This document shows positions 553-30,257 of a DNA stretch of 35,086 nt, piece by piece. Under the pieces are notes generated by a model. It did not search any database. It saw only the letters and a program-made list of their open reading frames with translations, and had not been told where the DNA came from. Position numbers and translations under genes: made by a program. Origin of the DNA: Anaerolineaceae bacterium (GTDB taxonomy: Bacteria > Chloroflexota > Anaerolineae > Anaerolineales > Anaerolineaceae); assembly GCA_017417055.1 (NCBI GenBank), contig JAFPZX010000170.1:1-35086 (forward strand). Direction: 5' to 3'. How positions within the stretch are numbered: the first letter of the stretch is position 1; each line of letters begins with the position of its first letter.

Positions 553-595
553 AATATGGATAATGAACCGAAAAGATAACGCAGGGAGAGAGTGG

Positions 596-9500: not shown

Positions 9501-12500
9501 CAGAGAATCCGGGTACCGCTTACGATGACGGGGAAGAGATCACCGTCACGGGCGACCTCACGCTCTACGCGCAGTGGGCGCTGAACAAGCATACGGTGAC
9601 CTTTATCGCCAACGACAGCGAAGGCAGCATCCGGGCGGAAGGCGAGATGCACGCCGAACAGTTCGATTATGGAACCACGCAGGAACTGACGGAAAATGCC
9701 TTCACCCGCACGGGTTACGAATTTAAGGGCTGGAACACGGTGGCTGCTCCGACCGCGGAAAACCCCGGTACACCCTATGCCGACAAGGCCTCCGTCACCA
9801 TCGAGGATGACATCAAGCTCTACGCGCAATGGGAGATCATCACTTATACGATCACCTATGAGCTGAACAGCGGCGAGCTGCCGGAGGGACAGACCAATCC
9901 GGCGAGCTATACCGTCGAGACCGACGACTTCACCCTGGTGAACCCGGTCCGCACCGGCTATACCTTTACAGGCTGGAATGACGGGACAGCTGTGGCGCAG
10001 TCCGTTGTTATTGTCAAAAACAGCACCGGAAATAAGACCTGCACAGCTGAGTGGACCGCGAATAACTATACGATCCGCTATGAACCCAACGGCGGCAGCG
10101 GCACAGCCCACAGCGAAGACTTCACTTATGACAGCGAACAAGTTCTGGCCGGATGGAACCTCAGCGGAGATCCCTTTGAGCGTACAGGTTACCGCTTCAC
10201 CGAATGGAACACGGCGGCAGACGGCAGCGGCACGGGCTATACCATGCATGAGAAGGTTAAAAACCTGACCGCTGAGCCGAACGTCACGGTCACGCTGTAC
10301 GCGCGGTGGGAACCAATCACCTATACCGTGCATTTTGAAGCCAACACCACGGACCCGGTGACGGGCAGCATGGCGGATCAGACCTTCACCTATGACGTAT
10401 CTCAGGCGCTGACGGCGAATGCCTATGAACGCTCCGGTTACAGCTTCGTGGGCTGGAATACAGCAGCGGACGGAACCGGCACCAATTACACAGATCAGGA
10501 AGAACTGAAAAACCTGAGCAACACGCAGGGTGCCGTCATCACGCTTTACGCAAAATGGACACTGATCCCCATTCACACCGTCACCTTTAACCCCAACGGC
10601 GGAACAGGGAATGTCTATACCCAGAACGTAGAGGAAGGCACGCCAACCTCTCTCACGCCGAACACCTTTACCCGCGAAGGCTGGACTTTTGCGGGCTGGA
10701 ACACGGCAGCGGACGGCAGCGGGACGGCATACGCCGACAAGGCAGCCGTCACACTGAGCGCGGACCAGACGCTTTACGCGCAGTGGGCCGCGGTCACCTA
10801 TTCCATCACCTATCATCTTGCGGGCGGCAGTGTGAGCGGGACGAACCCGGATGAATACACCCCGGCGGACGCGGCTATCACCCTCATCAACCCCACCCGC
10901 ACGGGCTATAGCTTCAGCGGCTGGCAGGGTACGGGGCTGAGCGGCACGGTCCTTTCCGTGACCATCCCGACCGGTTCCACCGGCAGCCGGGAATATACCG
11001 CGGTGTGGAGCGCGGTGCGCTATCAGGTGAGCTATGACAAGAACAGCGGGGAAGGCACCATGGGCGTGCAGTCCTTCACTTATGACACTTCACAGAACCT
11101 GTGGCCGAACAGCTTCACCCGCACCGGCTTCACCTTCCTCGGCTGGAACACAGCCGCGGATGGATCCGGCACGAGCTACGGGGACGGGGAGTCCGTGAAC
11201 AACCTGAGCAGTACCGATGGCGCTGTGGTGACGCTCTATGCCCAATGGACACAGAACCCCACCCGCACCGTCACCTTCGATGCCAATGACAATTCCTCCC
11301 GGACGAATACGCAGTCCGTGGTGGAGGGCGTGGCTTCACAACTGAGTCCGAACCAGTTCAGCCGCACGCATTACACGTTCAGCGGCTGGAACAGTGCGGC
11401 GGACGGCAGCGGTGATGAATATGCCGATGAGGCGACGGTCACGCTTTCCGCTGACATGACGCTGTATGCCCAATGGACCCCGGTGAACTACACCATCCGC
11501 TTCCACGCCAACGGCGGCGATGGAACCATGGCGGATCAGGTGGTGGCCTATACCCCGGGAGTTACGCAGCTCAACGCGCACAGCTTCACCCGTGAAGGAT
11601 ACGGCTTCGACCGCTGGAACACCGCTTCCGATGGCTCCGGAAAGTTCTATAATGACGGGGCGCTGATGGACATCACGGAGGATCTGGATCTTTATGCCCA
11701 GTGGGTCGCCAACGTCCACACCGTCACCTTCCTGCCCAACGGCGGGGCGGGGACCATGGATGCCGAGCGCTTCCCCTACGGTTCTGTGCAGACGCTGCGC
11801 ATGAACGCCTTCGAACGTGAGGGCTATGAATTCACCGGCTGGAAGGACGCGGGCGGCACCGACTATACAGACGGTCAGTCCGTTACCATCAGCGCCGACC
11901 TGGCTCTCACCGCGCAGTGGTCGCTGATACCTTATACGATTATTTATGACCTGGCCGGAGGGACAATTTCTGGGACGAATCCGGGAACTTATACCGTCGA
12001 GAGCGCTGCCATCACGCTTATCAATCCCACCCGTACGGGCTATACCTTCAGCGGCTGGCAGGGTACGGGGCTGAGCGGCACGGTTCCCTCCGTGACCATC
12101 CCGGCCGGTTCCACCGGGGACCGGGACTATACCGCGGTCTGGACTGCCAATACCTACACGGTTGCCTTTGTTTCCAACGGCGGCACGGGCAGCATGGCGG
12201 ACCAGAACTTCACTTATGATGTTCCGCAGGCCTTAAGCCCGCTCGGCTTCACCCGCGAGGGCTTCACCTTCGTCGGCTGGTACACCAACCCCGACGGGAC
12301 CGGTACTTCTTATGAGGACGGGGAATCCGTCCACAACCTGACGGACCGGAATGGGGTCACCGTTTCGCTTTATGCCGTCTGGACGGAAAAGCCCACCCAG
12401 ACCATCACCTTTGAACCCAACGGCGGGGCGGAAGCTGCCTACCATCAGAAGGTGATCCGTGGCAGCGGCACTGCCCTTTCCCCGAACCAGTTCACCCGCG

Positions 12501-15500
12501 TGGGCTATACCTTCAGCGGCTGGAACACCGCCGCGAACGGCAGCGGCACACCCTTTGCCGAAAATTCCTCCGTCATCCTGGTCAATGATATGACCCTTTA
12601 CGCGCAGTGGGAACCGATCCCGCTGACGGTGAGCTTTGACACCAACGGCGGGACAGGATCAATGCCGGACCAGACCTTCGCCTATGAGGTCCCGCAGGCG
12701 CTGAACGCGCATGCCTTTGAACGGGAAGGGTTCGGCTTCACCGGCTGGAACACTGCCGCGGACGGCACGGGTACGGGCTATACCGACGGACAGACCATCA
12801 GCATTACCGCTGACCTGACACTTTACGCACAGTGGAAAGCCAACGTCCACACCATCACATTCATCGCCAACGGCGGCGCTGGCAACATGGACGCGGAGGA
12901 ATTCGACTTTGGCACGACGATGAACCTGACGGCGAACGCCTTCACCCGTGAGGGCCATCGCTTCACCGGCTGGAACACTGCCGCGGATGGAAGCGGTACA
13001 GCCTATGCAGACAGCGCGTCCGTCACGATCAACACCGACCTGACGCTTTATGCGCAGTGGGAGGCTTACACTTACACCGTGCGCTTTGATGCCAACGGCG
13101 GCGCAGGCAGCATGGGTGACCAGAGCTTCACCTATGGCGTTTTCCAGGCCCTTTCCGCTCACAGTTTCACCCGCGAAGGGTACGGTTTCACTGGCTGGAA
13201 CACGGAGCCGGGCGGTCTCGGCGATTCCTTCACCGACGGGCAGTCGATCTCCGTCACGTCCGATTTGACCCTTTATGCTCAGTGGTCCGCCAATGTCCAC
13301 ACGGTCGCCTTCATCTCCAATGGCGGCAGCGGCACCATGGACGCGGAAAGCTTTGACTACGGTCAGACGCTGACTCTGACGGCGAATGCGTTTACCCGTT
13401 CGGGTTATGAATTTACTGGTTGGAACACCGCAGCCGATGGCAGCGGAACGCCTTATGGAAACGAAGCAGAGGTGACGATCAGCGAAGACCTGACGCTTTA
13501 TGCCCAGTGGACGGCTGTCGTTTACCGCCTGAGTTACAATTTAGAAGGGGGAAGCCTGGACGGCTCTAATCCGGCTTCCTACACCATGGAGAGTGAGGAT
13601 ATCACCCTCATCAACCCGACCCGTGACGGCTATACCTTCGCCGGCTGGCACGAATCCGTCTCCGGAAAGACGGAGCTGACCGTCACCATCGCGAAAGGCT
13701 CCACCGGGAACCGGGTCTATACCGCCCGCTGGACCGCTGTCAGTTATACGGTGCACTTTGACGCCAACGGCGGGGAAGGTACCATGGCGGACCAGAGCTT
13801 TACTTATGACGTTTCCCAGGCGCTGACGCTGAACAGCTATAAGCGCACGGGGTACAGCTTCCTTGGCTGGAACACGGAAGCGGACGGCTCCGGCACCAAT
13901 TACAGTGACGGGGAATCCGTCCACAACCTGAGCAGGACCGACGGGGCTGTGGTGATGCTTTATGCGTGCTGGACGCAGAATCCGACGCATACGATCACCT
14001 TTGATGCCAATGACGGCAGCGGGGATCAATATCAGCAGACCGTTGAGGATTCCCTCCCGACCACGCTCACGCCGAACATGTTCGAACGGACAGGCCATGA
14101 ATTCACCGGCTGGAATACGGCTGCTGACGGAAGCGGTGAGGATTACGCTGACGGCGCATCCGTCACGCTCACGGAAGACCTGACGCTCTATGCGCAATGG
14201 GAGGTCTTCACCTATACCGTGCGCTTTGATGCCAACGGCGGTGAGGGCAGCATGTCCGACCAGAGCTTTACCTATGGTGTTCCCCAGTCACTCAGCACCC
14301 ACAGCTTCACCCGTGAAGGCTATGGCTTCACCGGCTGGAACACTGCCGCGGACGGCACGGGTACCGGCTATACCGACGGGGAGACGATTTCTGTCACCTC
14401 TGATATGACGCTTTACGCGCAGTGGGCAGCCAACATCCACACGGTCACCTTTATCGCTAACGGCGGTGAGGGAACCATGGCGGCGGAGAATTTCTCCTAC
14501 GGTACCACCCGGAACCTGACCATGAACAGCTTTTTCCGCACAGGTTACAGCTTCAGCGGCTGGAACACCAAAGCCGACGGAAGCGGTGACGCTTATGCCA
14601 ATGGCGCTTTCGTTAAAATTACGGTAGATTTGACGCTTTACGCGCAGTGGACAGCCAACGTGCACACGGTCACCTTTATCGCCAACGGCGGCGAGGGTAC
14701 CATGGCGGCGGAGACTTTTGAATACGGACAGACACTGAACCTGACAGCGAATGTCTTCACGCGAGCCGGATATTCCTTCACCGGCTGGAATACAGCAGCT
14801 GACGGAAGCGGTGACGCTTACGCCGACGGCGCATCCGTCACGATCACGGAAGATTTGACACTCTATGCGCAGTGGACGGTCTTCACCTATACCGTGCGCT
14901 TTGATGCCAACAGCGGTGAGGGCACCATGTCCGACCAGAGCTTTACCTATGGCGTTCCGCAGTCACTCAGCACCCACAGCTTCACCCGTGAAGGGTACGG
15001 CTTCACCGGCTGGAACACTGCCGCGGACGGCACGGGTACCGGCTATACCGACGGGGAGACGATTTCTGTCACCTCTGATATGACGCTTTACGCGCAGTGG
15101 GCAGCCAACGTCCACACGATCACCTTTATCGCCAACGGCGGCGAGGGTACCATGGCCGCGGAGAATTTTGAATACGGACAGACGCTGAACCTGACAGCGA
15201 ATGCCTTCACGCGAGCCGGCTATACCTTTACCGGCTGGAATACGGCTGCTGACGGAAGCGGTGATGCTTACGCCGACGGCGCATCCGTCACGATCACGGA
15301 AGACCTGACACTCTATGCGCAGTGGACAAAGAGCAGTTTCAATATTTCGATCACAGCGGGTGAACACGGGACTGTTCAGGCTCTGAGCGGCGGAACCCCG
15401 GTTCAGTCCGCTTTGCCGGGTGAGGAAATCACGCTGATCGTCACACCGAATGAGGGATATGAGCTCCATTTGATTCGAGGAATGGCCGGCAGTCAGGAGA

Positions 15501-17130: not shown

Positions 17131-17159
17131 ATAACGCATCTTTGAAGACGATGTGTTAT
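17131..17159 (+). promoter_or_regulatory. 5' UTR hairpin upstream of the binding-protein gene
   Basis: ATAACGCATC (17131-17140) pairs with GATGTGTTAT (17150-17159), a 10-bp stem with one G-T pair and a 9-nt loop. It lies between the predicted transcription start and the GGAGG at 17170. It may stabilise the 5' end of the mRNA or be a protein-binding operator. Confidence 0.5.
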
Positions 17160-17181
17160 GAAAATTTTATGGAGGAAGTAC

Positions 17182-18741
17182 ATGAAGAAAGTTTTATTAG
17201 CGTTGTTTGCTGTCGTCATGGCAGCCGTCTTCGGTTTCTCCGGCGTGCTCGCTGAAGGGATCAAGGACGATCTCGTTATTGGTGTCGCTCAGGAAATCAA
17301 TGAGCTCAACCCGATGATGCAGAATGACCAGATCAATAACAACTGTTTCGCACTGACGCATGAACGTCTGGTGTTCCTGGACAACGGCCATGGATATGAA
17401 ATTTATCCGGAAATCGCCGAATCCTGGGAATGGACCGACGAAACTCATCTGGTTTTCCATCTGAATCCGAACGTGAAATTCAACAACGGCACACCGCTGA
17501 CCGCCGACGATGTGGTCTTCACGCTCAACCGCGCCCGCAGCGATGATCCGACCCTTTCCAAGGTTTCCGGTCAGCTGGGCCTGGTCACCGATGTCAGCAA
17601 GATCGATGATTACACTGTTCAGGTTACCACCTCTGCTTACAGTAATGAACTGATCTACAACTTCGGTTCCTATCCGCTGGCTATCCAGTCCAAGGCCGCT
17701 TATGAAGACGCGAACAACACCGAACCGTGGCTTGTCGGTTCCGGTCCGTATATCTTCAAGGAATGGCAGGAAGGCCAGTATGTGACATTCGCCAAGAATG
17801 AGGACTACTGGAACAAAGAAGCCCGCCCCAGCTATGCGAAAGAAATCACTTTCAAGTTCCTGCTTGAAGCTTCCCAGCGTGCCATCGCCCTGCAGAACGG
17901 CGAAATCGACGTTTGTGTTGATCCCCCTGTGACCGATCTGCGCTTCCTGGAAGAAGACGAAAACGTTGTCGTCCACACCCAGGCCGGTACCAGACTGTTC
18001 TACCTCGGCTTCAACGTCGCGAAGGAACCTTTCACCAACCAGAAACTCCGCCAGGCCGTTTCCGCCGCTGTTGACAAAGAAACCATCATCGCCATCGTCC
18101 TTGACGACCTCGGCAAATGGCAGACCTCCGTCCTGAACCGCGGTGCCTGGTCCTTCCTCGACAACGACCAGATCGAGGGCGGCTACACCTACGATGTGGA
18201 ACGCGCGAAGTCCCTCCTGGAAGAATCCGGTTACAAACCGGGTGAACTGACCGTCGAACTCTTCACTCCGACCGACGATCCCTACAAGACCATCGCCCCG
18301 ATCATCCAGGCCAACCTTAAGGAAATCGGCATCAACGTCGACATCAAATCCATGGATCAGGCTACCCTGAAATCCGAATGTGCAGCCGGCCATCAGCAGA
18401 TGTTCCTGTGGCGCTGGAACATCGGTGCCCGCGTGGATGAAACCTACCGCGAACTGTTCTACACCGGATTCCCGACCAACTATGCCCAGCTGAGCGACCC
18501 GGTCGTCGACGATCTTGCCGACAAGGTCCTCACCGAAATGGATCAGGACAAGCGCCTGCAGTACAGCTACGACTACCAGAATTATATGGCTGAGACCGTT
18601 TACCAGGTCCCGCTCTATGTTCCGGATCTCGTGATTGCCTACAACAAGGGCCTCGTTGTTTCCGATTCCTATGATGATGCGGGTGTTCTGTTCGCCGGCG
18701 GCGGTAACCACTTCTGGGCCCGCGCTTACGTTGAACTCTAA
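17182..18741 (+). CDS. Peptide ABC transporter substrate-binding protein (SBP_bac_5)
   Basis: 519 aa. The start at 17182 follows GGAGGAAGTAC, and the product then begins with a classic signal peptide (MKKVLLALFAVVMAAVFGFS). An in-frame ATG at 17158 would put eight extra residues before it and lies inside the hairpin. The mature part has the family-5 extracellular solute-binding pattern: AESWEWTDETHLVFHL, then FNNGTPLTADDVVFTLNRA, then a long two-lobed body with LRQAVSAAVDKETI, and a C-terminus near 519 aa, normal for the Opp/Dpp family. No lipobox cysteine is present, so the protein looks like a signal-peptidase-I product rather than the lipoprotein usual in monoderm bacteria. It captures oligo- or dipeptides (or a related ligand) for the permease encoded just downstream. 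Ligand cannot be told from sequence. Confidence 0.93.
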   Translation: MKKVLLALFAVVMAAVFGFSGVLAEGIKDDLVIGVAQEINELNPMMQNDQINNNCFALTHERLVFLDNGHGYEIYPEIAESWEWTDETHLVFHLNPNVKFNNGTPLTADDVVFTLNRARSDDPTLSKVSGQLGLVTDVSKIDDYTVQVTTSAYSNELIYNFGSYPLAIQSKAAYEDANNTEPWLVGSGPYIFKEWQEGQYVTFAKNEDYWNKEARPSYAKEITFKFLLEASQRAIALQNGEIDVCVDPPVTDLRFLEEDENVVVHTQAGTRLFYLGFNVAKEPFTNQKLRQAVSAAVDKETIIAIVLDDLGKWQTSVLNRGAWSFLDNDQIEGGYTYDVERAKSLLEESGYKPGELTVELFTPTDDPYKTIAPIIQANLKEIGINVDIKSMDQATLKSECAAGHQQMFLWRWNIGARVDETYRELFYTGFPTNYAQLSDPVVDDLADKVLTEMDQDKRLQYSYDYQNYMAETVYQVPLYVPDLVIAYNKGLVVSDSYDDAGVLFAGGGNHFWARAYVEL

Positions 18742-18769
18742 TCTGCAGCCTTTGAACCTTTAAATAGAT

Positions 18770-18802
18770 CCGGCGGGCCTCAAAAACCCGCCGGTCATTC
18801 AT
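18770..18802 (+). terminator. Terminator between binding-protein and permease genes
   Basis: CCGGCGGG (18770-18777) pairs with CCCGCCGG (18787-18794) around a 9-nt loop, followed by TCATTCATTTTT. It lies 28 nt after the stop codon. Partial termination here would give more binding protein than permease, as is common in binding-protein-dependent importers. Confidence 0.75.
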
Positions 18803-18824
18803 TTTTACGATTCAGAAGCTCATC

Positions 18825-18902
18825 GGGGACTGTCCCTTTATGGGACTGTCCCCATTGTTCAGAAAAAAACAGTCGGGACTGTCCCATAAAGGGACAGTCC
18901 CC
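18825..18902. repeat. Pair of GGGGACxGTCCC palindromes in inverted order
   Basis: Two 28-29 bp imperfect palindromes, 18825-18853 (GGGGACTGTCCC TTTAT GGGACTGTCCCC) and 18875-18902. The second is almost the reverse complement of the first, so the pair also forms one large inverted repeat with a 21-nt centre. It lies just before the ribosome binding site of the next gene. The same palindrome recurs at 25756-25784. This arrangement resembles REP/BIME units mobilised by REP-associated transposases, but no such transposase is in the window. Confidence 0.8.
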
Positions 18903-18919
18903 AATAAGGAGCACAGTTT

Positions 18920-19855
18920 ATGTTCCGATACATTCTCAAACGGATCATTATCCTGATCCCGACCCTGCTCGCCACATCTCTGCTCATCTTTTGGGCAATG
19001 GACCTGGCAGGCGGGGATCCCGTGGATCAGATCCTTCCGGAAAACGCCACATTTGAACAAAAGGCCGCTCTGAGGGAAGAAATGGGGCTGAACGATCCCT
19101 TTTTCGTCCGCTATTTCCGCTATATCGGCGGGATCCTGAAAGGCGATATGGGCGAATCCTACATCACCCATCGTGACGTTTTCCAAACCTTTATGGGACG
19201 TCTGCATATGACGCTCCTGCTGGGAGGCAGCGCACTGATTTTTGCCTGCATCATCTCCATCCCGCTGGGGATCTATACCGCGCTGCATCAAAACACCTGG
19301 AAAGATACAGCTGCCATGATCATCGCGCTGTTCGGTGTTTCCATGCCGAACTTCTGGCTGGGCCTGATGCTGATCCTGCTGTTTTCCCTGAAACTGGGCT
19401 GGCTGCCCTCCGGCGGTACCGGCGGATTCAGATACCTGATCCTGCCCGCTGTCACGGTTGGGCTGGGTCTGGCCGCTTTGCTGACCCGCACCACCCGCAG
19501 CGCCATGCTGGACGTGCTGCGTCAGGATTACATGACAACCGCAAAAGCCAAAGGCGCTTCCCGCAACCGGGTCATCTATAACCACGGGCTGCGCAATGCC
19601 ATCATCCCGATCATCACCGCCATCGGTATGCAGTTCAGCTACGTCATGACGGGTTCCGCTCTGGCAGAGACGGTGTTCGGCTGGCCCGGCATTGGCCGCC
19701 TGGTGGTTGATTCCATCAATAAGCGCGACACGCCGATGGTCACAGGATCCATCATCCTCTGCTGTGTGCTGATGGCCGTTATCAACCTGGCCGTGGATAT
19801 TATCTACGCGTTCTGCGACCCGAGAATCAAAGCGCAGTACTCCGGAAAGGGATAA
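18920..19855 (+). CDS. Peptide ABC transporter permease (DppB/OppB type)
   Basis: 311 aa, a usual length for this family. The N-terminus MFRYILKRIIILIPTLL is the conserved first membrane helix of DppB-like permeases, followed by a periplasm-facing loop containing GDPVDQILPENAT and further membrane helices. The EAA loop that docks onto the ATPase reads YMTTAKAKGASRNRVIYNHG followed by LRNAIIPIITAIG. AAGGAG lies 8 nt before the ATG. It forms the transmembrane channel with the next gene's product. Only 4 nt separate its stop from the next start, so the two are surely co-translated. The subfamily substrate (dipeptide, oligopeptide or nickel) is not resolved, so no symbol is given. Confidence 0.94.
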   Translation: MFRYILKRIIILIPTLLATSLLIFWAMDLAGGDPVDQILPENATFEQKAALREEMGLNDPFFVRYFRYIGGILKGDMGESYITHRDVFQTFMGRLHMTLLLGGSALIFACIISIPLGIYTALHQNTWKDTAAMIIALFGVSMPNFWLGLMLILLFSLKLGWLPSGGTGGFRYLILPAVTVGLGLAALLTRTTRSAMLDVLRQDYMTTAKAKGASRNRVIYNHGLRNAIIPIITAIGMQFSYVMTGSALAETVFGWPGIGRLVVDSINKRDTPMVTGSIILCCVLMAVINLAVDIIYAFCDPRIKAQYSGKG

Positions 19856-19859
19856 GGCT

Positions 19860-20750
19860 ATGCAACTGTTCAACAAGAAAAAATCAGACGGCACCGAAAT
19901 GATCGGCCGCTCTATGGGACAGGAAACCTGGCGCCGGCTCAAGAAAAACAAAGGCGCCATGATGGGTATCGCTTTCCTTATCCTTCTTTTTATCGGGACG
20001 GCGCTCGCCAGCATCTTTTATGATTACGACAAAGACATCATCGGCATGACCCGAGACCGCTTTATGGCCCCCAGCTGGCAGCATCTCTTCGGAACCGATA
20101 ACATGGGACGGGACATCTTCGCCCGGGTGATTTACGGTGCGAAATACTCCCTCTTCATCAGTTTTGGTTCCACACTGATCGGGCTGATCGTGGGTCTGTT
20201 CCTTGGTGCGGCAGCCGGGTATTACGGCGGGCTGGTCGATAATATCATCATGCGCCTCACGGATATCTTTTATTCCATCCCCTACATCATGATCGCTGTG
20301 GTAGTCGTTTCCATTCTCGGCACCAGCATGTCGAGCCTGCTTTTCGCCATGGCACTGGGGACGTTCTGCAACTTTGCCCGTATCGGCAGAGCTTCCGTAA
20401 TGACGGTCCGCGACATGGAATTTGTGGAAGCCGGACGCGCCATCGGTCTGCCGACCTGGAAAATCATCCTCAAGCACATCCTGCCGAACTGCCTTTCCGC
20501 AATCATCGTGCAGACCACGCTGAAAGTGGGCTCCAACATTATTTCCGCATCCTCTCTCAGCTTTCTGGGAGTCGGGATCACGCCGCCGACACCGGAATGG
20601 GGCGCCATGCTTTCCGATGGACGTTCCTACATCCGTTCCTCCGGCTGGATGTGCCTGTTCCCGGGGCTTGCGATCATGCTCACCGTTCTGGCCCTGAACC
20701 TTCTGGGCGACGGTCTGCGTGACGCTATGGATCCAAAATTGAAGCGCTAA
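19860..20750 (+). CDS. Peptide ABC transporter permease (DppC/OppC type)
   Basis: 296 aa. It has the OppC_N-like start (TWRRLKKNKGAMMGIAFLIL), the family pattern HLFGTDNMGRDIFARVIYGA at about residues 77-96, then five further hydrophobic helices. The EAA loop FVEAGRAIGLPTWKIILKH followed by ILPNC contacts the ATPase subunits. The C-terminal LNLLGDGLRDAMDPKLKR is the standard ending of DppC proteins. It starts 4 nt after the previous stop and ends 9 nt before the next start, so it belongs to the same operon. It pairs with the DppB-type protein to make the membrane channel. Confidence 0.94.
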   Translation: MQLFNKKKSDGTEMIGRSMGQETWRRLKKNKGAMMGIAFLILLFIGTALASIFYDYDKDIIGMTRDRFMAPSWQHLFGTDNMGRDIFARVIYGAKYSLFISFGSTLIGLIVGLFLGAAAGYYGGLVDNIIMRLTDIFYSIPYIMIAVVVVSILGTSMSSLLFAMALGTFCNFARIGRASVMTVRDMEFVEAGRAIGLPTWKIILKHILPNCLSAIIVQTTLKVGSNIISASSLSFLGVGITPPTPEWGAMLSDGRSYIRSSGWMCLFPGLAIMLTVLALNLLGDGLRDAMDPKLKR

Positions 20751-20759
20751 GGGGGGGAA

Positions 20760-21761
20760 ATGATGGAAAATGTATTGGAAGTAAAAGACCTTGTTGTCCG
20801 CTTTGATACGGATGACGGCATCGTGCGCGCCATCAACGGCATCTCTTTCAATATCGGGAAGGAACGTACACTCGGGCTGGTGGGTGAAACCGGCGCGGGT
20901 AAAACAACGACCGCACTCTCCATCCTGAACCTGGTGCCGGACCCGCCGGGCGTGATTTCCAACGGATCGATCGTCCTGGATGGGAAAGAAATCCTGAAAA
21001 TGAGCGAAAAGGAACTGGAGCATATGCGCGGCAATGATGTCGCCATGATTTTCCAGGACCCTATGACCGCCCTGAACCCGGTGATAACTGTTGGTGAGCA
21101 GATCGCGGAAGCGGTGATGCTGCATGAAAATCTGAGCAAAGAAGAGGCCATGGAGCGGGCAAAAAAGATGCTGGAAATGGTCGGCATCTCCGGTTCCCGA
21201 GCCACGGACTATCCGCACCAGCTTTCCGGCGGGATGAAACAGCGTGTCGTGATTGCTATCGCGCTGGCCTGCCATCCCTCCCTGCTGATCGCTGACGAAC
21301 CGACTACCGCGCTGGACGTCACCATTCAGGCACAGGTGCTGGCCCTCATTAAAGAGTTGATCGACAAGAATCAGATGTCCATGCTGATGATCACCCATGA
21401 CCTGGGCGTGGTGGCGGAAGTCTGCGATGATGTGGCTGTGATGTATGCCGGACGCATTGTTGAGATCGGTACGGCGGATGAGGTGTTCAACCACACACTG
21501 CACCCCTACACGGAAGGCTTGTTTGATTCCCTGCCGAACCTCCGCAAGCGCGGGGAGGATCTGGTGCCGATCAAGGGACTGATGCCGGACCCGATGCACC
21601 TGCCGGAGGGCTGCAGCTTCAACCCCAGATGCCCGTATGCAGCCGAGGAATGTCAGAAAAAATTACCGGAGCTGAAGCTCGTGAATGGAACTCATTATGT
21701 TGCCTGCGGCCGATACGCGGAACCGCAATTCCGCATCAGGAGGAACCCGGATGGAAAATGA
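20760..21761 (+). CDS. Peptide ABC transporter ATPase (DppD/OppD type)
   Basis: 333 aa from 20760 (a second ATG follows immediately at 20763), preceded by a G-rich ribosome binding site. Walker [10 protein letters not shown] at about 42-50, Q-loop Q99, signature LSGGMKQR at 155-162, Walker B LLIADEP at 175-181, and a switch histidine in MLMITHDLG. The C-terminal oligopeptide_HPY region has cysteines in [14 protein letters not shown] and ACGRY, as usual in OppD/DppD proteins. It hydrolyses ATP as one half of the motor of this importer. Its 3' end overlaps the next gene by 11 bp, pointing to translational coupling. Confidence 0.95.
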
Positions 21762-22716
21762 TGTGATCCTTGAGGTGAAGAACCTCACCAAATATTTTGA
21801 TACCCCGAAAGGGAAACTTCACGCGGTGGATGACGTCAGCTTCACGATCAACCGCGGGTCCACCCTGGGCATCGTGGGAGAATCCGGCTGCGGAAAGTCC
21901 ACCACCGGCCGAACGATCCTGAAGCTGATCGAACCGACCAGCGGCCAAATCATCTTCAACGGCACGGATATCACCAAATACAAAGACCGCCAGATGCGCA
22001 AGCTGCGCACGGATATGCAGATCATCTTCCAGGATCCCTTCTCCTCTCTGGATCCGCGGCAGAACGTCATGCAGCTTATCAGCGAGCCGATCAAAGAGCA
22101 TCATATCTGCAAATCGAAGGAAGAGGTTCAAAAACGTACCCTGGAGATCATGGATACGGTCGGTCTTGCCCGCCGCTTTGTCAATTCCTATCCGCATGAA
22201 CTGGACGGCGGACGCCGTCAGCGTATCGGCATTGCCCGTGCGCTTTCGGTCAACCCGAAGCTGATCGTCTGCGATGAACCGGTTTCCGCACTGGATGTTT
22301 CTATTCAGGCACAGATCCTCAACCTGCTCAAGCAGCTGCAGCGTGATATCGGTCTGACATATATCTTCATTACGCACGACCTCAGCGTCGTCCGCTATTT
22401 CTCCGACGATATCGCGGTGATGTACCTGGGACAGATGGTGGAAAAGTCACCGTCGGACAAGCTGTTCGAGAACCCGATGCATCCCTATACCCGGGCGCTG
22501 CTCTCTGCCATCCCGCTGCCGATTGTCGGGAAGGAAAAACCGAAACGACAGTTGATCAAGGGTGAAGTGACCTCTCCGGTGAACCTGCCGGACCGCTGCC
22601 GATTCCTGCCGCGCTGCAGTGAGTGTCTGGAAAAGTGTCCGAATGCTTCGTCACCGCAGCTGGTCGAGGTTGAGCCGAACCATTTCGTCGCCTGCCATAA
22701 ATATAGTCAGAAGTGA
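21751..22716 (+). CDS. Peptide ABC transporter ATPase (DppF/OppF type)
   Basis: 321 aa with the start at 21751, chosen because CAGGAGGA lies about 8 nt upstream and the product then begins [16 protein letters not shown] as in OppF proteins. An ATG at 21685 in the same frame would lie deep inside the previous gene. Walker [10 protein letters not shown] at 43-51, then [13 protein letters not shown] (Q-loop), signature region [16 protein letters not shown] (an LDGGR form of LSGGQ common in this subfamily), Walker [13 protein letters not shown], and switch FITHDLS. The C-terminal cysteine region ([15 protein letters not shown], then ACHKY) is present. It is the second half of the ATPase pair and the last gene of the importer operon. 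Confidence 0.95.
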
Positions 22717-23829: not shown

Positions 23830-23864
23830 AAAAATTGCTTATAAAGCGTGAGGAGGTGATTTTT

Positions 23865-25073
23865 ATGAGCAGAAAAAAACTTTTTGAACTGTTGGAGCGT
23901 ATCGCAAAGGAAAAACCGGAGCTTTGCAAAGAAATTGAGGATTTTGCCAAAAGGGTCATTGCCTGCGGCGGAGAACTGGAAGAAACGAATCTGCTTGCGG
24001 AATTCAAAAGCGCTCACCCTGAAATCGCGGGTATACTGGCTGATTTTGAAAGTGAGACTGCAGAATGCGGGGATGGAAAAATATTCCCGGTTCATAAAAC
24101 CTTCTCTGATGAAATTCGTCAGCGAATCAAACTGGCAAAGGAGAATGACCATTATGCCAACTGGGCGAACGCGATCAAGTCGATTCCGGCCTTTACCCTT
24201 CCACTGCCGGTCGTTGACTCCGCTTTTCTGAGCCGGGCGAAGGAGATTTGGAAAGAGAATGTGTATGGAAATGATGAGATCTTGCGGGTGCTGCTCCGTC
24301 ATTGTATCGAGTACAGCAAGCATGGAAAAACCATGCCGATCCTGCTGCTCGGCGACCCGGGAATCGGCAAAACGCTTGTGGCGAGGACCTATGGAAAGAT
24401 TATGAACCTTCCTTGCAGCTTCCTTTCCGGTCCGTCGGCTGCATCGGGCCGCGGACTCGCCGGGGCACCGAACCTTTATTCGGGAGCGGGTGTGGGGGCT
24501 GTTGTCCAGGCGATGATCGACCATAAAGCCGGCAATCCGGTGCTTTGCATTGATGAGCTTGATAAGGCGGTGGAATCTTTCAGGAAAGACAGTGTGTTTC
24601 AGAATGAGCTGCTTTCTTTGCTGGATGAGAGTGGTGAGACCTGGTACGACAATTTTCTCGAAATTTCTGTGGACGCCAGTCACCTCATCTGTGTGATGAC
24701 CGCTAATGAGATCAATGAGATTTCCCGGCCGCTGCTGGACCGGATGGAAATTATCCGTATGGAAGCGCCTGACAAAGAAACGATGCATAACATCACGAAG
24801 AAAATGACGCTGCCGGAAGTGCTGCGTGTATATGAAGAAGATCGTGTTTGTTTCCCGGAGCGGGAGCTGGACCTGCTGGTGGACATGCTCTGGGATGGAG
24901 GAAATCACAGCTGCCGTCCTTATCAGAAGGCTGTCTCATTGCTGGTGAGCGACGCCTATCTGGCAGCAGTCGAAACAAACAGCAATGTTTGTATCTCTGA
25001 GGAGAATGTAAGGAAAACCGCTGCTATGTGGTCGCGGAAGAAAAGCTGCAGCGGGATTGGTTTTGTTGCATAA
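23865..25073 (+). CDS. AAA+ ATPase, Lon/MoxR-like, no protease domain
   Basis: 402 aa. The start at 23865 is fixed by a perfect AGGAGGTGA at 23851-23859. The N-terminal 120 residues are helical with no recognised domain. The AAA+ core follows: Walker A GDPGIGKT at 163-170, Walker B VLCIDE at 226-231 followed by LDKA, sensor-1 Asn 281 in MTANEIN, and an arginine-finger candidate R293 in LLDRMEII, then a helical lid with a possible sensor-2 Arg at 351. The core looks like the ATPase module of Lon, but there is no Ser-Lys protease domain. It should be a cytoplasmic ATP-driven remodeller or a DNA- or protein-acting factor; the partner is unknown. It is followed after 14 bp by the YbjN-like gene, probably one operon. 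Element A (copy 1) forms part of its leader. Confidence 0.88.
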   Translation: MSRKKLFELLERIAKEKPELCKEIEDFAKRVIACGGELEETNLLAEFKSAHPEIAGILADFESETAECGDGKIFPVHKTFSDEIRQRIKLAKENDHYANWANAIKSIPAFTLPLPVVDSAFLSRAKEIWKENVYGNDEILRVLLRHCIEYSKHGKTMPILLLGDPGIGKTLVARTYGKIMNLPCSFLSGPSAASGRGLAGAPNLYSGAGVGAVVQAMIDHKAGNPVLCIDELDKAVESFRKDSVFQNELLSLLDESGETWYDNFLEISVDASHLICVMTANEINEISRPLLDRMEIIRMEAPDKETMHNITKKMTLPEVLRVYEEDRVCFPERELDLLVDMLWDGGNHSCRPYQKAVSLLVSDAYLAAVETNSNVCISEENVRKTAAMWSRKKSCSGIGFVA

Positions 25074-25087
25074 AAGGAGTGTATATT

Positions 25088-25735
25088 ATGTCTGATTATT
25101 CTCATGAACTTGAAAATGTGATCCGGGAAACCCTGGATCATGAAGAAATTCATTATGATTTTGAAAAGGATAAGGGATATTTTCGCTTCGGCATCTCGCT
25201 GCCGGGGAAAATCAAACGGGTTGACGTTATCATTGACGTCAAGATGGATAAATTTGTCACTTACGCGATTTGTCCGCTTTATGCTGATTATGAAAATGAC
25301 GAGCAGATGGCACGGGCTGCGGAATTTTTCTGCCGTGTGAATTACGGGCTCTTGAATGGAAACTTTGAGCTTGATTTCAATGACGGTGAAATCCGCTATA
25401 AGAGCTTTGTGAACTGCGATGGCGTTGTTCCTTCTGCCACTGTGATCATGGATACGATTCAGTGTGCGGCTGCCATGTATTCCCGTTACGGAAAGGGACT
25501 GCTGCAGATTCTGTTCAATGATTGGGCACCGGAGGATGCGGTCAATTTCTGTGAAAACAAGTTCTCCCCCATTCCTGAGCTCTCTATTGATGATGACGAG
25601 GACGAGAACGATGAAGAGGATACTGACGATGACGATCTTGATACCGAAAATGACGATGAGGAAGACGTGCTGAGCGAGGAGGAGGTATCCGCTCACCTGT
25701 TCGATTTGCTGCATCGTCTGCAGCAGCAGGAATAG
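25088..25735 (+). CDS. YbjN-like domain protein with acidic tail
   Basis: 215 aa. The start at 25088 follows AAAGGAG placed right after the AAA+ gene's stop codon. Residues 1 to about 155 resemble the YbjN / type III chaperone-like fold (alternating strands with GYFRFGISLPG, VDVIIDVKMDKFVTYAICPL, and a helix-rich second half with VNYGLLNGNFELDFNDGEIRYK). These proteins are linked to stress and motility regulation and are thought to act through protein binding. Residues about 165-200 form a very acidic stretch of mostly Asp and Glu, then a C-terminal helix HLFDLLHRLQQQE. No signal peptide. Being downstream of an AAA+ ATPase, it may be its adaptor or substrate-binding partner; this is inference. 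Confidence 0.72.
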   Translation: MSDYSHELENVIRETLDHEEIHYDFEKDKGYFRFGISLPGKIKRVDVIIDVKMDKFVTYAICPLYADYENDEQMARAAEFFCRVNYGLLNGNFELDFNDGEIRYKSFVNCDGVVPSATVIMDTIQCAAAMYSRYGKGLLQILFNDWAPEDAVNFCENKFSPIPELSIDDDEDENDEEDTDDDDLDTENDDEEDVLSEEEVSAHLFDLLHRLQQQE

Positions 25736-26044: not shown

Positions 26045-26758
26045 ATGTCTTTAATTTCCGATTTTGATCAAAGAACAGCCTGGAAAAGAGAGCGGATCAC
26101 AGGATGGTTCGGAACCAATCCCAATGTTTTGAATAAAGTTGATCCGGAGGGGCGGTACCGGACATTTCCCGGTACCACTGTTGTTTTTCAGTGCAGTGAG
26201 CCGATGTTTGAAGTCATTAGTCCTCTGCAGGATGAACTGCACTTCCAGCTGGCAGGATCAGAAATGCTGGCGCAGCGCCTTCCCTCTGCTGCCTTTCATA
26301 TGACCCTGCATGACCTGGTCTCACCGGAACAGAAAACCGCTCATTCCCTGCCGGATTACTTTCATGAAATGGATGACAGTTTGAGACGTGCTGTAGAAAT
26401 TGTGAGCAGTTTGCGGGGAAGTTACCGAGGAAAACATATTTCCATGGCTGCCGACCATATTGTCAATATGGTATCTAAATCCATTGTCATGCTCCTGAAA
26501 CCGGTAAGGGAAGAAGACTTTGAGCTTTTGCTGGAGATGTACCATCAGTTTGATGAAATTGTACGGCTGCCCTATCCGCTGACGCCTCACATAACGCTTG
26601 CTTATTTCAAGCCCTGCATGATCGATGGTGATAAATTAGGAAATGTTGTAGTTTCGCTGAATGAGAAGCTCAAATCATTGCCTGTATTTGAATTTCCCAT
26701 AGAAAACCTGACTGCGCAGCGGTTTTTGGATATGAAGACCTATAGTAACGTTTATTAA
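26045..26758 (+). CDS. 2H phosphoesterase-like protein (2'-5' RNA ligase superfamily)
   Basis: 237 aa. AGGAG at about 26033-26037 lies 7 nt before the ATG. Two H-x-T motifs define the 2H fold: H85-M-T87 in AFHMTLHDL and H182-I-T184 in LTPHITLAYF, each preceded by hydrophobic strand residues, 97 residues apart as expected for two pseudo-symmetric lobes. Members of this superfamily open 2',3'-cyclic phosphates or cleave 2'-5' or cyclic oligonucleotide bonds. An N-terminal extension of about 40 residues contains RERITGWFGTNPNV. No signal peptide, so it is cytoplasmic. It is convergent with the HD-RyR/TIR operon and separated from it by a 31-nt hairpin. A role in removing a nucleotide signal made or sensed by that operon is an inference. 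Confidence 0.8.
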   Translation: MSLISDFDQRTAWKRERITGWFGTNPNVLNKVDPEGRYRTFPGTTVVFQCSEPMFEVISPLQDELHFQLAGSEMLAQRLPSAAFHMTLHDLVSPEQKTAHSLPDYFHEMDDSLRRAVEIVSSLRGSYRGKHISMAADHIVNMVSKSIVMLLKPVREEDFELLLEMYHQFDEIVRLPYPLTPHITLAYFKPCMIDGDKLGNVVVSLNEKLKSLPVFEFPIENLTAQRFLDMKTYSNVY

Positions 26759-26775
26759 TTCCTATGAAAGCGGGA

Positions 26776-26806
26776 GGACAGTTCTGCGCTTCGCGCAAAA
26801 CTGTCC
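26776..26806. terminator. Bidirectional hairpin between convergent 2H and TIR genes
   Basis: GGACAGTTCTGCGC (26776-26789) pairs with GCGCAAAACTGTCC (26793-26806), a 14-bp stem with one mismatch and a TTC loop. Its outer part belongs to the GGGGACAGTCCC palindrome family. It lies in the 83-bp gap between two convergent genes, so it can end both transcripts. Confidence 0.7.
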
Positions 26807-26841
26807 CCGATACTCAATTAATAGGTGACTTTAATTCGTGT

Positions 26842-28167
26842 TTACTTAGTATATGCCTGAAATCCAAGATTTTTCTGTCGAGCGTATTTTTCCGTGTAGC
26901 TGCCGGGGACCCCAATGAGGGTGACGCCGCTGTCTGCATCAAATGCGTCAATGTCGATAAGAACTTTTTGAGCAGGAATCGTGACAGATTTGAGGGCAGG
27001 CGTATTGGTGAAGGTTCCGATTGGTAGGAAGGTAAGCGCTTCCGGGAAAATAACGCTTTCAAGCTGCTCACAGCCGTTAAATACATTCGTGTTCAGTGTA
27101 TTAAATGATTCCGGCAGTGTAAGACTGACGAGTCCGCTTTCCATGAAAGCTTCGTCTCCGAGATAGGTAAGAGTATTGGATAAAGTGACTTCCCGCAGGT
27201 TGATACATCCGGCAAAAGCGTCGAGATCAATGAAATCAACCGTGTCAGGGATAATAACCTTTTGAATTTCTGTGTTGTCTTCAAAGCAGGACGCTCCAAT
27301 TCCTGTGACCGGTAGTCCATCGACGATTTCAGGAATAATGATTTCTGTAGTTCCCACTTCATTGTATTTTTCAAGGCGGATCGTGTTGTCATCTAACATG
27401 GCAATAAGGTAATCATCAGCGTTTGGTGATTCATACTCTGTTGAAAAGTAATAGAATTTGTCATCAAGGACGACCCATTTCTGGATTTGACTGAAATCCA
27501 TTTTTCGGATATCTTCTCCCGTGTAGGTTGTGACTCCCTGGCGGATCAGTTCTTTTAATTCAGGATCTACAGCTGTTTCTTCGGCGATTGAGTTTGAGAA
27601 AATCCCGCGGCTGTAAAGAAAACCGGCTATTCCGATAATCAAAAAGAGTGCGATCAGGAGAGCTGTAAGACGAGATTTGGAAAAGGGTGACTTTTTGTTT
27701 CCGGATTTTCCGGCGGAAGTTTCAGAATTTTTGTGTTTCGGATCAGCAGCGTTATCAGCTTTATTATTTTGGCTGCTTTGTTTTGTGCGGACAAGCTGAA
27801 GCAGTTCGTCGAGAGAAGCATCCCTGTTGTCGGAGCAGTTCAGCCAGTGCAGCGTGGAAAGGTAATACTGCATACTGCCGGTGAGTGTGCAGTCATCGCA
27901 TTTGAAGGGAATAATTTCTTTTTTGAAGTCCACCGACAAACCAACCTCCCGCAGTACCTGGACAGAGGTGTTGGAATTTTCGGTGAAAATCAGGACTACC
28001 ATTCTGCAATCCTGCAGCGCTTTTGTAATGGTATCTGCCCATTCCTTGCCGGGCCGGATGTCCCGGGGAGCATACCAGCAGCTGATGCCTGCGGATTCGA
28101 GTTTATTTACAACGGCTTCCCGGATGTCACTGTCTTTATGTGAGTAACTGATGAATACATCGCGCAT
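26842..28167 (-). CDS. TIR domain - transmembrane - BspA-type LRR protein
   Basis: 441 aa. Residues 1 to about 125 are a TIR_2 domain: start MRDVFISYSHKDSD, then GISCWYAPRDIRPGKEW, and NTSVQVLREVGLSVDF, with E74 in the place of the catalytic glutamate of NAD-cleaving TIRs. A Lys/Asn/Ser-rich linker (about 128-165) leads to one membrane helix at about 167-185 (LTALLIALFLIIGIAGFLY). The rest, after the helix, is outside the membrane if positive-inside holds; residues about 265-425 are BspA-like leucine-rich repeats (VIIPDTVDFIDLDAFAGC, LREVTLSNTLTYLGDEAF). It starts 14 nt after the upstream gene's stop, so the two form an operon. The order TIR-TM-LRR is the reverse of an animal Toll receptor. 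Likely a sensor or effector membrane protein; whether it cleaves NAD is untested. Confidence 0.9.
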   Translation of the reverse strand: MRDVFISYSHKDSDIREAVVNKLESAGISCWYAPRDIRPGKEWADTITKALQDCRMVVLIFTENSNTSVQVLREVGLSVDFKKEIIPFKCDDCTLTGSMQYYLSTLHWLNCSDNRDASLDELLQLVRTKQSSQNNKADNAADPKHKNSETSAGKSGNKKSPFSKSRLTALLIALFLIIGIAGFLYSRGIFSNSIAEETAVDPELKELIRQGVTTYTGEDIRKMDFSQIQKWVVLDDKFYYFSTEYESPNADDYLIAMLDDNTIRLEKYNEVGTTEIIIPEIVDGLPVTGIGASCFEDNTEIQKVIIPDTVDFIDLDAFAGCINLREVTLSNTLTYLGDEAFMESGLVSLTLPESFNTLNTNVFNGCEQLESVIFPEALTFLPIGTFTNTPALKSVTIPAQKVLIDIDAFDADSGVTLIGVPGSYTEKYARQKNLGFQAYTK

Positions 28168-28181
28168 AGATGGATCCTTGT

Positions 28182-30257
28182 TTATTCGGAAAGGCTGTAG
28201 ATTCTGAGCCCGTCAAATTGTCTGATCAGTTTGAGCATGCTGTTGAAAGGCATATAGTCTTTTTCCTGATCGGATTCAGTCAACAGATGGTAATGTTCAT
28301 GGATCATTTCGGAGGATGGATCGCCTGCCATCATCAGTTCATGCGTGCGGAATTGTTCGCGGAGGGATTTACGCACCTCTTTTTCACTTTGCCCTTCAGA
28401 AAGGGCAAGTTTTTCCACAGGGATCGTCCGATGGATGTCGTTGTACTGCCAATCCATGTTTTGTTTTTCATGGATCCAGCGTTCGTGTTCCAGCGCTCCG
28501 ATGATATCGGTCTGTTCTTCTGTGAAGTGTGTAACCATGCTGAAGTCCACCGGTTTGTCCGTATAAAAGCAGTTGATATGGTTCAGATAGCGTGAAAAAC
28601 TTTTCGCCTGGTTGATGTTGGAGAGCTGATATTCCAGGGAAAGGCTGTCAAATTCTGCTTCAAGCGTTTCCGCGGGAATTTTTTTTTCATCGTCCTGGTG
28701 GGCATAGCGTCCGTTGAGCGCGACAGCGAAGTCGTACAGATGGAGGAAGCTGCTGGTGGAAAGGAAGGTCTTTTTCGCTTTGCGGTCAGCTTTGCGAATG
28801 TCCACTTTTACCGTGAGCGGCATATTTGATGTGTCCACGATGGATTCAATTTCCCGGGCGAAGCTTTGTTCTTTTTCAGACATGTCGCTGTATTCTTTGA
28901 GACGGGGCGGTTTCCCCTGTTCGCCGGATTCTTCCCACTGTTTATAAACGCGCTTAAAATCGTCGATTTTTTCTTGTTCTTCACTGTCATAGATATAGGT
29001 GATGGCGAGGGCGTTCCCGCTGAGGTCCATCTCAACACCCATGGGATGCATTTCCTGTCGAGTGTTCCGTCCATAAGCGGTGCGGTCCCAGCATTGCAGC
29101 TCATCGCAGATAAAGAGAAGCCAGGCCAGCGGGAAAGTTTCCATCGGCAGCGGCGCTTTGCGGACGTTCGGATCCTTTGATTTGAAAAAAGCGATGGAAT
29201 GTTTGTAAAGGCTGTTGTGCAGCAGAATGGCGGCGAGCGCATCCATGTGTTTTTCCGAAAGATACGGCAAAACGTTCGGCATGTTGATGAGCTGTTTGTA
29301 CAGAATGAGTGCGCTGAAATATCCATGGTCAATGTGGAAATTGAAGGCTTCCGGATGTGTTGGTTTGTTCGTGATTACCGAATGGATATGAGCTTCCGAG
29401 AATCCATATTGATCAGTGAGTTTTTGGGAAACTACAAAAGCAAAGAGTTCTTCAATGGTCTCGAAGGTTCGGTGATAGAGCTTTTGAAAATGCTTTTTTT
29501 CTTCATCACTGAGTTCGATCAGGGATTTCATGTTTTTGTATGCGAGATAAGGATTATTTTTCCGGTCCGGGTCGCTTTCGGTAAAATAGGAAGCGACCTG
29601 TTCAAAAGGAATCTCAAAGGGATAGCCGATGTCATGCAGAAGGGCTGTCATTCCCCAGAAAGCCAGAAACGTATGGGCTGCTTTGCGGTCTTCTTCCCGG
29701 TTGTTTTCGTCCGTGCTGAAGCCGTAGAAAGATTTGAAAGATTCACGGAAATGTTCATTGGATTCATAAATCGCAAGGCCCAGCGTGAAGACATAAACAG
29801 AGTGGGAGTAGTGATCGCGGTGTTTCATCAGCAGGGAGCTGGCGTTGGATTCAAATTCCGAAAGCAGTTCGATCACTTTCTTGGACTTGGAGTAGCGGCT
29901 GACAAAAAAGATTTCAAAATAACTGTAATAAACAGTGTAAGCGTCTTCCGCGCTGCCGGAATCGATAAAGGATTCCAGTTCCCGTTCCAGACAGAGCCGG
30001 TTGAGATCCATCTGCATGTTGTAGGGAATCTGCCCTTCTTTGATTCCGACTCCCTGACAGGTTCCGGTTTTTTCTTCTTCCTGTTCAATATCCGGGTTGA
30101 ACCGAAGGCCTTCACAGCGGTCGTGCAAAAAACGCAGCGCCGCGGATTTCATGTCTGAGCCGGATGTCCCGTGAAAAGCCGGCTGCTTTGGTCCGTAACC
30201 GAAACCGTATTTTGTTTCATTTTTCTTCCGCATGTTCTCAATAGCTGTGTAACTCAT
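28182..30257 (-). CDS. HD-domain phosphohydrolase fused to a RyR domain
   Basis: 691 aa, starting at 30257 with GGAGG about 5 nt upstream. Residues about 140-395 form an HD fold: candidate metal ligands are H152 (in HYSHSVYV), H208-D209 (LLHDIGYPF), H311 (in HIDHGYFSAL), H347 (ILLHNSLYKHS) and D385 (FICDELQCWDR), in the H-HD-H-H-D order of active enzymes. Residues about 583-685 look like a RyR (ryanodine receptor repeat) domain: IIGALEHERWIHEKQNMDW near its start and LLTESDQEKDYMPFNSM near its end. HD enzymes usually hydrolyse nucleotide phosphates or cyclic nucleotides; bacterial RyR domains are thought to bind nucleotide-like ligands. The N-terminal 130 residues are unassigned. It is cytoplasmic and the first gene of an operon with the TIR-LRR gene. 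Element A copy 2 lies 49 nt upstream in sense orientation. The RyR call is by eye and less sure than HD. Confidence 0.82.
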   Translation of the reverse strand: MSYTAIENMRKKNETKYGFGYGPKQPAFHGTSGSDMKSAALRFLHDRCEGLRFNPDIEQEEEKTGTCQGVGIKEGQIPYNMQMDLNRLCLERELESFIDSGSAEDAYTVYYSYFEIFFVSRYSKSKKVIELLSEFESNASSLLMKHRDHYSHSVYVFTLGLAIYESNEHFRESFKSFYGFSTDENNREEDRKAAHTFLAFWGMTALLHDIGYPFEIPFEQVASYFTESDPDRKNNPYLAYKNMKSLIELSDEEKKHFQKLYHRTFETIEELFAFVVSQKLTDQYGFSEAHIHSVITNKPTHPEAFNFHIDHGYFSALILYKQLINMPNVLPYLSEKHMDALAAILLHNSLYKHSIAFFKSKDPNVRKAPLPMETFPLAWLLFICDELQCWDRTAYGRNTRQEMHPMGVEMDLSGNALAITYIYDSEEQEKIDDFKRVYKQWEESGEQGKPPRLKEYSDMSEKEQSFAREIESIVDTSNMPLTVKVDIRKADRKAKKTFLSTSSFLHLYDFAVALNGRYAHQDDEKKIPAETLEAEFDSLSLEYQLSNINQAKSFSRYLNHINCFYTDKPVDFSMVTHFTEEQTDIIGALEHERWIHEKQNMDWQYNDIHRTIPVEKLALSEGQSEKEVRKSLREQFRTHELMMAGDPSSEMIHEHYHLLTESDQEKDYMPFNSMLKLIRQFDGLRIYSLSE

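Follow-up and report, generated by a model that had tools for sequence, protein, structure and literature searches.

Two adjacent minus-strand genes in a 35,086-nucleotide stretch of an Anaerolineaceae bacterium genome (assembly GCA_017417055.1, contig JAFPZX010000170.1, positions 1 to 35,086; this whole stretch is referred to below as the window) form a pairing that is conserved and recurs in dozens of bacteria. The first gene encodes HD-RyR, which joins a phosphodiesterase-like (PDE-like) HD domain to a C-terminal domain of the type present in ryanodine receptors (RyR), and the second encodes TIR-TM-LRR, in which a TIR domain is followed by a transmembrane (TM) segment and leucine-rich repeats (LRR). 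With a confidence that stops just short of even, the two genes are read here as a two-component immune unit based on nicotinamide adenine dinucleotide (NAD) signalling, in which the signal switches an HD effector by way of the RyR domain. A preliminary description of the window had proposed a nucleotide-signalling or defence system made up of these two genes and a 2H phosphoesterase gene. The positions and strands that it gave for the open reading frames (ORFs) agree with the ORF list of the window, as do the gaps of 14 bp between the HD-RyR stop and the TIR start and of 83 bp between the ends of the convergent 2H and TIR genes (Table 1). A GGAGG site precedes the ATG of the HD-RyR gene, and the source genome is a 4.4-Mb draft that is 85% complete.

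Conservation of the TIR and HD-RyR pairing

A genome scan for HD-RyR found 111 related stretches, from which 80 loci were kept, and in these the HD-RyR protein is 50 to 63% identical to that of the window over nearly its full length. The hosts are mostly Bacillota metagenome-assembled genomes (MAGs), many with ruminant-gut titles, together with five Chloroflexota and one Actinomycetota. On the HD-RyR tree the nearest relatives of the window protein come from a Chloroflexi MAG (locus L011) and a MAG labelled Ruminococcus (L012), followed by those of a Flexilinea MAG (L018) and two Chloroflexi MAGs (L021 and L022). The TIR genes of L011 and L012 directly follow HD-RyR, and when aligned with the window's TIR protein their products show 56% and 53% identity, respectively.

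With TIR ORFs called by a TIR profile built in this analysis, 32, 43 and 48 of the 80 loci have such an ORF no further than 200 bp, 1 kb and 5 kb, respectively, from HD-RyR (30, 40 and 45 if on the same strand), and 51 have one somewhere in the flank. The supposition in the preliminary description that homologues of the two proteins would be neighbours in other genomes is borne out far above chance, since 33 of the 59 loci with 2 kb or more on each side have a TIR gene within 2 kb, where about 0.34 would be expected. This expectation is a rough one, taken from a TIR_2 density of 1.05 per Mb (81 matches in approximately 77 Mb, from 28 genomes without a linked TIR gene), and the comparison mixes the TIR profile of this analysis in the numerator with the TIR_2 density in the expectation. 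Counted by eye, TIR and HD-RyR genes share one same-strand run in 41 of the 51 TIR loci and do not in the other 10. Nine runs are composed of HD-RyR and TIR genes only, one of which (L065) is cut at a contig end and another of which (L081) has a SLATT-like gene further on. The distribution of linkage over the HD-RyR tree requires 16 changes, as against 24 on average when the labels are shuffled, and at least 13 of the changes are forced by well-supported branches. TIR linkage is thus clustered on the tree and yet has been made or lost many times.

The association extends to whole genomes. Within the genus of the window, TIR_2 is found in all five genomes with HD-RyR and in one of the nine others (p 0.003), and within the bacterial family of genome G110 it is present in 17/17 genomes with full-length HD-RyR versus 37/86 others (p 4e-6), or in 29/30 versus 25/73 when divergent or partial matches (HD-only or RyR-only) are included, with p values that are uncorrected for ancestry. 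Among the 28 genomes whose HD-RyR locus is without TIR, TIR_2 occurs elsewhere in 24 and is not found in four. The only other TIR_2 match in the genome of the window is a 1485-residue ORF (L106, G000:C46, 4351-8808), on an 11.2-kb contig where no HD-RyR match was found.

The HD-RyR protein and its pocket

The HD domain of HD-RyR appears to be PDE-like. Seven residues, H149, H208, D209, D310, H311, H347 and D385, are invariant in the window and the 80 loci (81/81), the H..HD..D metal ligands of HD superfamily hydrolases being present, and H208 and D209 are found as they had been named earlier, as is E74 of the TIR protein. Identity to the class I cyclic-nucleotide phosphodiesterases is 7 to 15%, and the Pfam PDE profile has no match among 55 aligned family members (the window protein and those of 54 of the 80 loci).

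The earlier assignment of an RyR domain is not apparent from the window protein by itself. Pfam gives only sub-threshold matches to the window protein, with HD at E 0.062 and no RyR match up to E 1, and across the 55 members HD is matched in five (best 7.5e-4). The relatives do match the RyR profile PF02026, which reaches E 0.1 or better in 32 of the 55 (best 4.1e-6), matches 23 of 32 C-terminal domains of the family and scores 54.7 bits against a cut-off of 27.4 in a divergent relative (L107). In the AlphaFold2 (AF2) model of HD-RyR (pLDDT 85.1, pTM 0.90) the C-terminus adopts the Repeat12 fold, and it is on the matches of the relatives and on this predicted fold that the RyR assignment of the window protein is based. 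A phmmer search of HD-RyR against PDB sequences returned nothing up to E 1, and the sole match of the family profile there was human RyR3, at E 0.96. A full-length Foldseek search was set aside, with no match at E 0.001 and with unrelated proteins, of which many were helical or from membranes, making up its list. The PADLOC (2023) defence models gave no match to the window protein up to E 1, nor to two relatives up to 0.001.

What might such a domain bind? A 2026 preprint (PMC13232231) describes cleavage of 2' and 3' cyclic ADP-ribose (2'cADPR and 3'cADPR) made by TIR proteins; the phage protein RyDEP achieves this via a Repeat12 pocket, in which H75 and D117 are catalytic, W78 braces the adenine and H100 is located at the phosphates. 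It also reports binding of the signals by six of eight other homologues, and cleavage by none. The earlier idea that the RyR domain binds a nucleotide is strengthened by this report of phage Repeat12 domains binding TIR-made cADPR isomers. When the RyDEP sequence (gene 78 of MN234187) is compared by hhalign, the only segment that aligns is HxxW, in which H75-x-x-W78 pairs with the window protein's H591-x-x-W594, at probabilities of only 26 and 6.6; the match of H655 and D667 to H100 and D117 comes from motif spacing in our own alignment and not from hhalign. Putative counterparts of all four RyDEP ligand residues are, by this alignment, present in HD-RyR as H591, W594, H655 and D667. The pocket is mostly conserved in the family, with the tetrad intact in 51 of 52 copies that have TIR in the flank and in 23 of 29 that do not (p 0.008, window and 80 loci). 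This contrast between linked and unlinked copies fails on uncut loci (40/41 versus 16/18, p 0.22) and is weak, because four of the six unlinked copies with a broken tetrad sit in loci that are cut near the gene.

The TIR-TM-LRR protein

The TIR domain proposed in the preliminary description is accepted by the Pfam TIR_2 profile (E 5.8e-23), the repeats match LRR_5 (E 2.6e-27) and their structure matches include TpLRR 6mlx. A single hydrophobic segment starts at residue 167, after a stretch rich in Lys and Arg, and an orientation judged by eye predicts that the N-terminal TIR domain is inside the cell and the LRR outside. E74 is presumably the catalytic glutamate. A loose pattern, which can match by chance, finds the TIR glutamate in 50 of 51 loci, and the residue is missing from many first-of-pair TIR-like proteins. 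A count by alignment column (37/90 domains) was discarded, the column being seemingly displaced in proteins of the TIR-TIR-TPR kind. A scan of 62 TIR proteins (61 neighbours and that of the window) gave matches at E 0.001 or better to TIR_2 in 52 and to ThsB_TIR in 12. The builds of the linked proteins vary and include TIR-TM-LRR, TIR-TIR-TPR and TIR with beta-propellers.

Proposed mechanism and alternatives

How could the two proteins work together? The TIR protein would be anchored in the membrane, with TIR inside and the BspA-type LRR outside, the latter sensing a cue. The TIR domain would convert NAD+ to an ADP-ribose-type signal, probably a cADPR isomer, as its family and E74 suggest. This signal would sit in the Repeat12-like pocket of HD-RyR, to which the predicted fold and the four conserved residues point, and once bound it would switch on the PDE-like HD active site. 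The HD domain may then destroy a nucleotide or a phosphodiester of nucleic acid, such that growth or phage replication stops.

The case for HD as the effector comes from two sources. In the two-gene runs the sole candidate effectors within the run are HD-RyR and the TIR protein itself. Moreover, HD domains of the HD-RyR family end an LRR-Roc-COR (Roco) protein in genome G201 and a second large protein in genome G205, and both keep the RDHxxH, HDIGY, DH, HN and CDELQCWDR motifs. The large G205 protein has no Pfam match, and TIR_2 has no match in genome G205. The position of HD at the end of these proteins, one of them in a genome where TIR_2 finds no match, argues for an output domain and not an eraser of a TIR product.

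Several observations weigh against this reading. A TIR gene is not found nearby in 29 of the 80 HD-RyR loci. SLATT-like proteins are also encoded in 13 of the 51 TIR loci; they match DUF4231, which we take to denote SLATT, only below cut-off, 11 of 16 are long forms, and in L060 they match the YAcAr SLOG model, again below cut-off. In loci with SLATT-like or CorA-like genes the effector at work may be a pore, and the H/D pair of the RyR domain could itself cleave the signal.

The alternative that survives best, one that we consider unlikely while taking it seriously, is that HD-RyR is an off-switch: RyR captures and may open the cyclic ADPR signal, HD destroys the product, and the TIR response thereby ends or stays low, with the part of effector falling to the TIR NADase, to a SLATT-like pore or to some other gene. 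The cleavage of cADPR isomers reported for RyDEP (PMC13232231) fits with this, as do the counterparts of its catalytic H/D pair in H591 and D667, the SLATT-like or CorA-like candidate effectors of some loci and the TIR_2 matches elsewhere in 24 of the 28 genomes with unlinked HD-RyR, for which the base rate is 54/103 in one family. Set against it are the nine runs with HD-RyR and TIR genes only, with the provisos noted for L065 and L081, the same HD domain at the end of the Roco protein and of the large protein whose genome has no TIR_2 match, and the binding without cleavage reported for six of the eight other RyDEP homologues (PMC13232231). We think that HD is better viewed as effector than as eraser, the latter being the role that the preliminary description gave to HD or 2H, and the preference is a modest one.

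A general metabolic role for HD-RyR, as an enzyme that responds to nucleotides, for example ATP, ADP or ADP-ribose, much as animal Repeat12 domains bind adenine nucleotides, and that has TIR as a mere accessory neighbour, is quite improbable. Unlinked copies among ordinary genes, one mostly TIR-free clade and RyR3 Repeat12 structures whose titles name ATP, ADP or AMP-PCP are in keeping with such a role, which is hard to reconcile with a TIR adjacency around 100 times above the rough chance estimate, with the several TIR architectures that are linked and with the 13 or more linkage changes that the tree forces.

The 2H assignment itself is sound, as the PF08975 profile (2H-phosphodiest) scores 25.1 bits against a cut-off of 21 and the two HxTx motifs of the family are seen as HxTL at 85 and 182. 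The membership of 2H in the system, as first described, is not supported: the gene has no match in 60 relative genomes and no BLAST match at 1e-4 among the ORFs of 90 fetched HD-RyR loci, of which many have short flanks and the window's own (L001) ends before its 2H gene, and no close relative of the protein was found in viral contigs. Given this lack of conservation and the convergent orientation, a partner role was rejected and 2H left out of the system, and a single pathway of three genes in which 2H degrades the signal is very improbable in spite of the 83 bp spacing and the valid assignment.

Locus layout, neighbouring genes and mobility

Table 1. Coordinates of the paired genes, their domains, the 2H gene and two further proteins ending in an HD domain.
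Feature	Location	Positions	Strand	Remarks
HD-RyR gene	Window	28182..30257	minus	691 aa; first in two-gene run
HD catalytic core	Window	29103..29813	minus	Residues 149-385; seven invariant residues given in text
C-terminal RyR Repeat12-like domain	Window	28185..28760	minus	Residues 500-691; supposed ligand tetrad
TIR-TM-LRR gene	Window	26842..28167	minus	441 aa; 14 bp downstream of HD-RyR
TIR domain	Window	27799..28158	minus	TIR_2; E74 at place of catalytic glutamate
Single predicted membrane segment	Window	27613..27669	minus	Residues 167-185; mean hydropathy 2.58
BspA-type leucine-rich repeats	Window	26935..27303	minus	LRR_5; predicted extracellular
2H phosphoesterase gene	Window	26045..26758	plus	237 aa; convergent; PF08975 E 1.9e-5; judged chance neighbour
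Roco protein (LRR-Roc-COR) with terminal HD	L105 (G201:C7)	3735-7487	minus	
Large protein with terminal HD	L104 (G205:C24)	3267-7157	minus	P-loop motif by eye

Between the 2H and TIR genes there is a palindrome with 14-bp arms (26776-26806), to which three others elsewhere in the genome are related with 2-3 mismatches. Coding G+C is 0.54-0.57 to the left of 23 kb and 0.42-0.47 to the right of 25 kb, a drop that places the TIR and HD-RyR genes inside an AT-richer block. The remainder of the window includes a 5468-residue ORF (563-16969), the first 1679 residues of which match Listeria-Bacteroides repeats and Chlamydia PMP repeats and whose product is probably a giant surface protein; genes for an oligopeptide ABC transporter (17158-22716; binding protein, two permeases and two ATPases); and a gene for a Lon-like AAA ATPase of 412 residues that overlaps one for a 235-residue protein (23835-25735), the latter having a very acidic tail and no family match.

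Two records are consistent with HD-RyR as travelling cargo. An unverified 8.3-kb phage record from human faeces (MT836912) contains HD-RyR and TIR genes followed by one for a Mu-F-like head protein, and on an IMG/VR contig HD-RyR is found close to genes for a MobA/MobL relaxase and an actin-like partition protein. The plasmid collection gave no HD-RyR match in any record, which counts against wide plasmid spread. In the phage record (L094, MT836912.1, 543-8046) CorA-like, HD-RyR and TIR genes stand in a row before the phage head morphogenesis gene, and this version, carried by a phage, adds a membrane protein as its third component. The CorA-like gene matches PADLOC CorA at E 1e-48, has no Pfam CorA match and has no match in the other loci. 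A larger variant is seen as a five-gene run in L107 (G194:C6, 1241-10005), with genes for a TIR-like protein, a TIR protein, a long LRR protein, HD-RyR and a SLOG-SLATT-like protein, and similar runs occur in L060 and L070, the runs involving both the 690-residue and the 600-residue HD-RyR families.

Significance and comparison with known systems

The Repeat12 domain is kin to the dantrolene-binding domain of ryanodine receptors. Cyclic ADPR has long been proposed to act on the animal receptors, without an agreed binding site. It is also described as implicated in RyR modulation (PMC13232231). It is possible, at a confidence rather below that given to the immune unit, that in one class of TIR immune signalling the cell itself uses Repeat12 to receive the cADPR isomers made by TIR and, through it, to control a PDE-like HD effector, the LRR sensor making the window's pair a bacterial analogue of a Toll-like-receptor pathway. 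If so, the pair would be a natural cellular receptor for cADPR isomers, tied through its gene order to a TIR enzyme of its own, HD phosphodiesterases would join the possible outputs of TIR signalling, and the sensing of cADPR by RyR-type domains would be suggested as an old immune trait. Compact two-gene units such as L011, L043 and L078 would then hold signal, receptor and output together. A literature search that fell short of some key papers found no description of an HD-RyR/TIR system, and an earlier description is possible.

Like RyDEP, HD-RyR has a Repeat12 fold, as predicted, and apparent counterparts of all four ligand residues. Unlike RyDEP, a small stand-alone phage protein directed against the host (138 residues in L101), the domain here ends a 691-residue bacterial enzyme beside a TIR gene. 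In contrast to the ryanodine receptors there is no channel, and the domain is joined to a PDE-like HD enzyme. Nucleotide-centric conflict systems with SLATT, SLOG and TIR were reportedly described by Burroughs in 2015. The present loci share with these the presence, next to TIR, of SLATT-like or SLOG-SLATT-like proteins, seen in 13 of the 51 TIR loci and at scores below cut-off. Such combinations of SLATT, SLOG and TIR are cited in PMC9503650 and PMC7159879, in neither of which a word begins with RyR or ryanodine.

Toll-like receptors have a single membrane segment that separates the LRR from the TIR domain inside. The window's protein is likewise predicted to have LRR and TIR on opposite sides of the membrane, a likeness of plan only, and differs in being TIR-first, in its BspA-type repeats and in probably being an enzyme. 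In Thoeris the TIR sensor ThsB makes cADPR isomers and ThsA is the effector. As in that system, a TIR gene with the glutamate adjoins a gene for a protein with a domain of a kind that, in phages, can bind cADPR-type signals. Thoeris effectors also include proteins with a caspase domain. The effector ThsA is of the SIR2-SLOG or macro type (PMC11204291, available text). The partner here has HD and RyR instead of SIR2-SLOG, macro or caspase, and the window's sensor, unlike that of Thoeris, is membrane-anchored with LRR. ThsA-type SIR2-SLOG, macro and caspase domains have no Pfam, NCBIfam or PADLOC match in HD-RyR, and because no recognised ThsA domain was found the pair is not classed among the known types of Thoeris; the best view of it is as a unit of TIR signalling that resembles Thoeris and whose partner is unusual.

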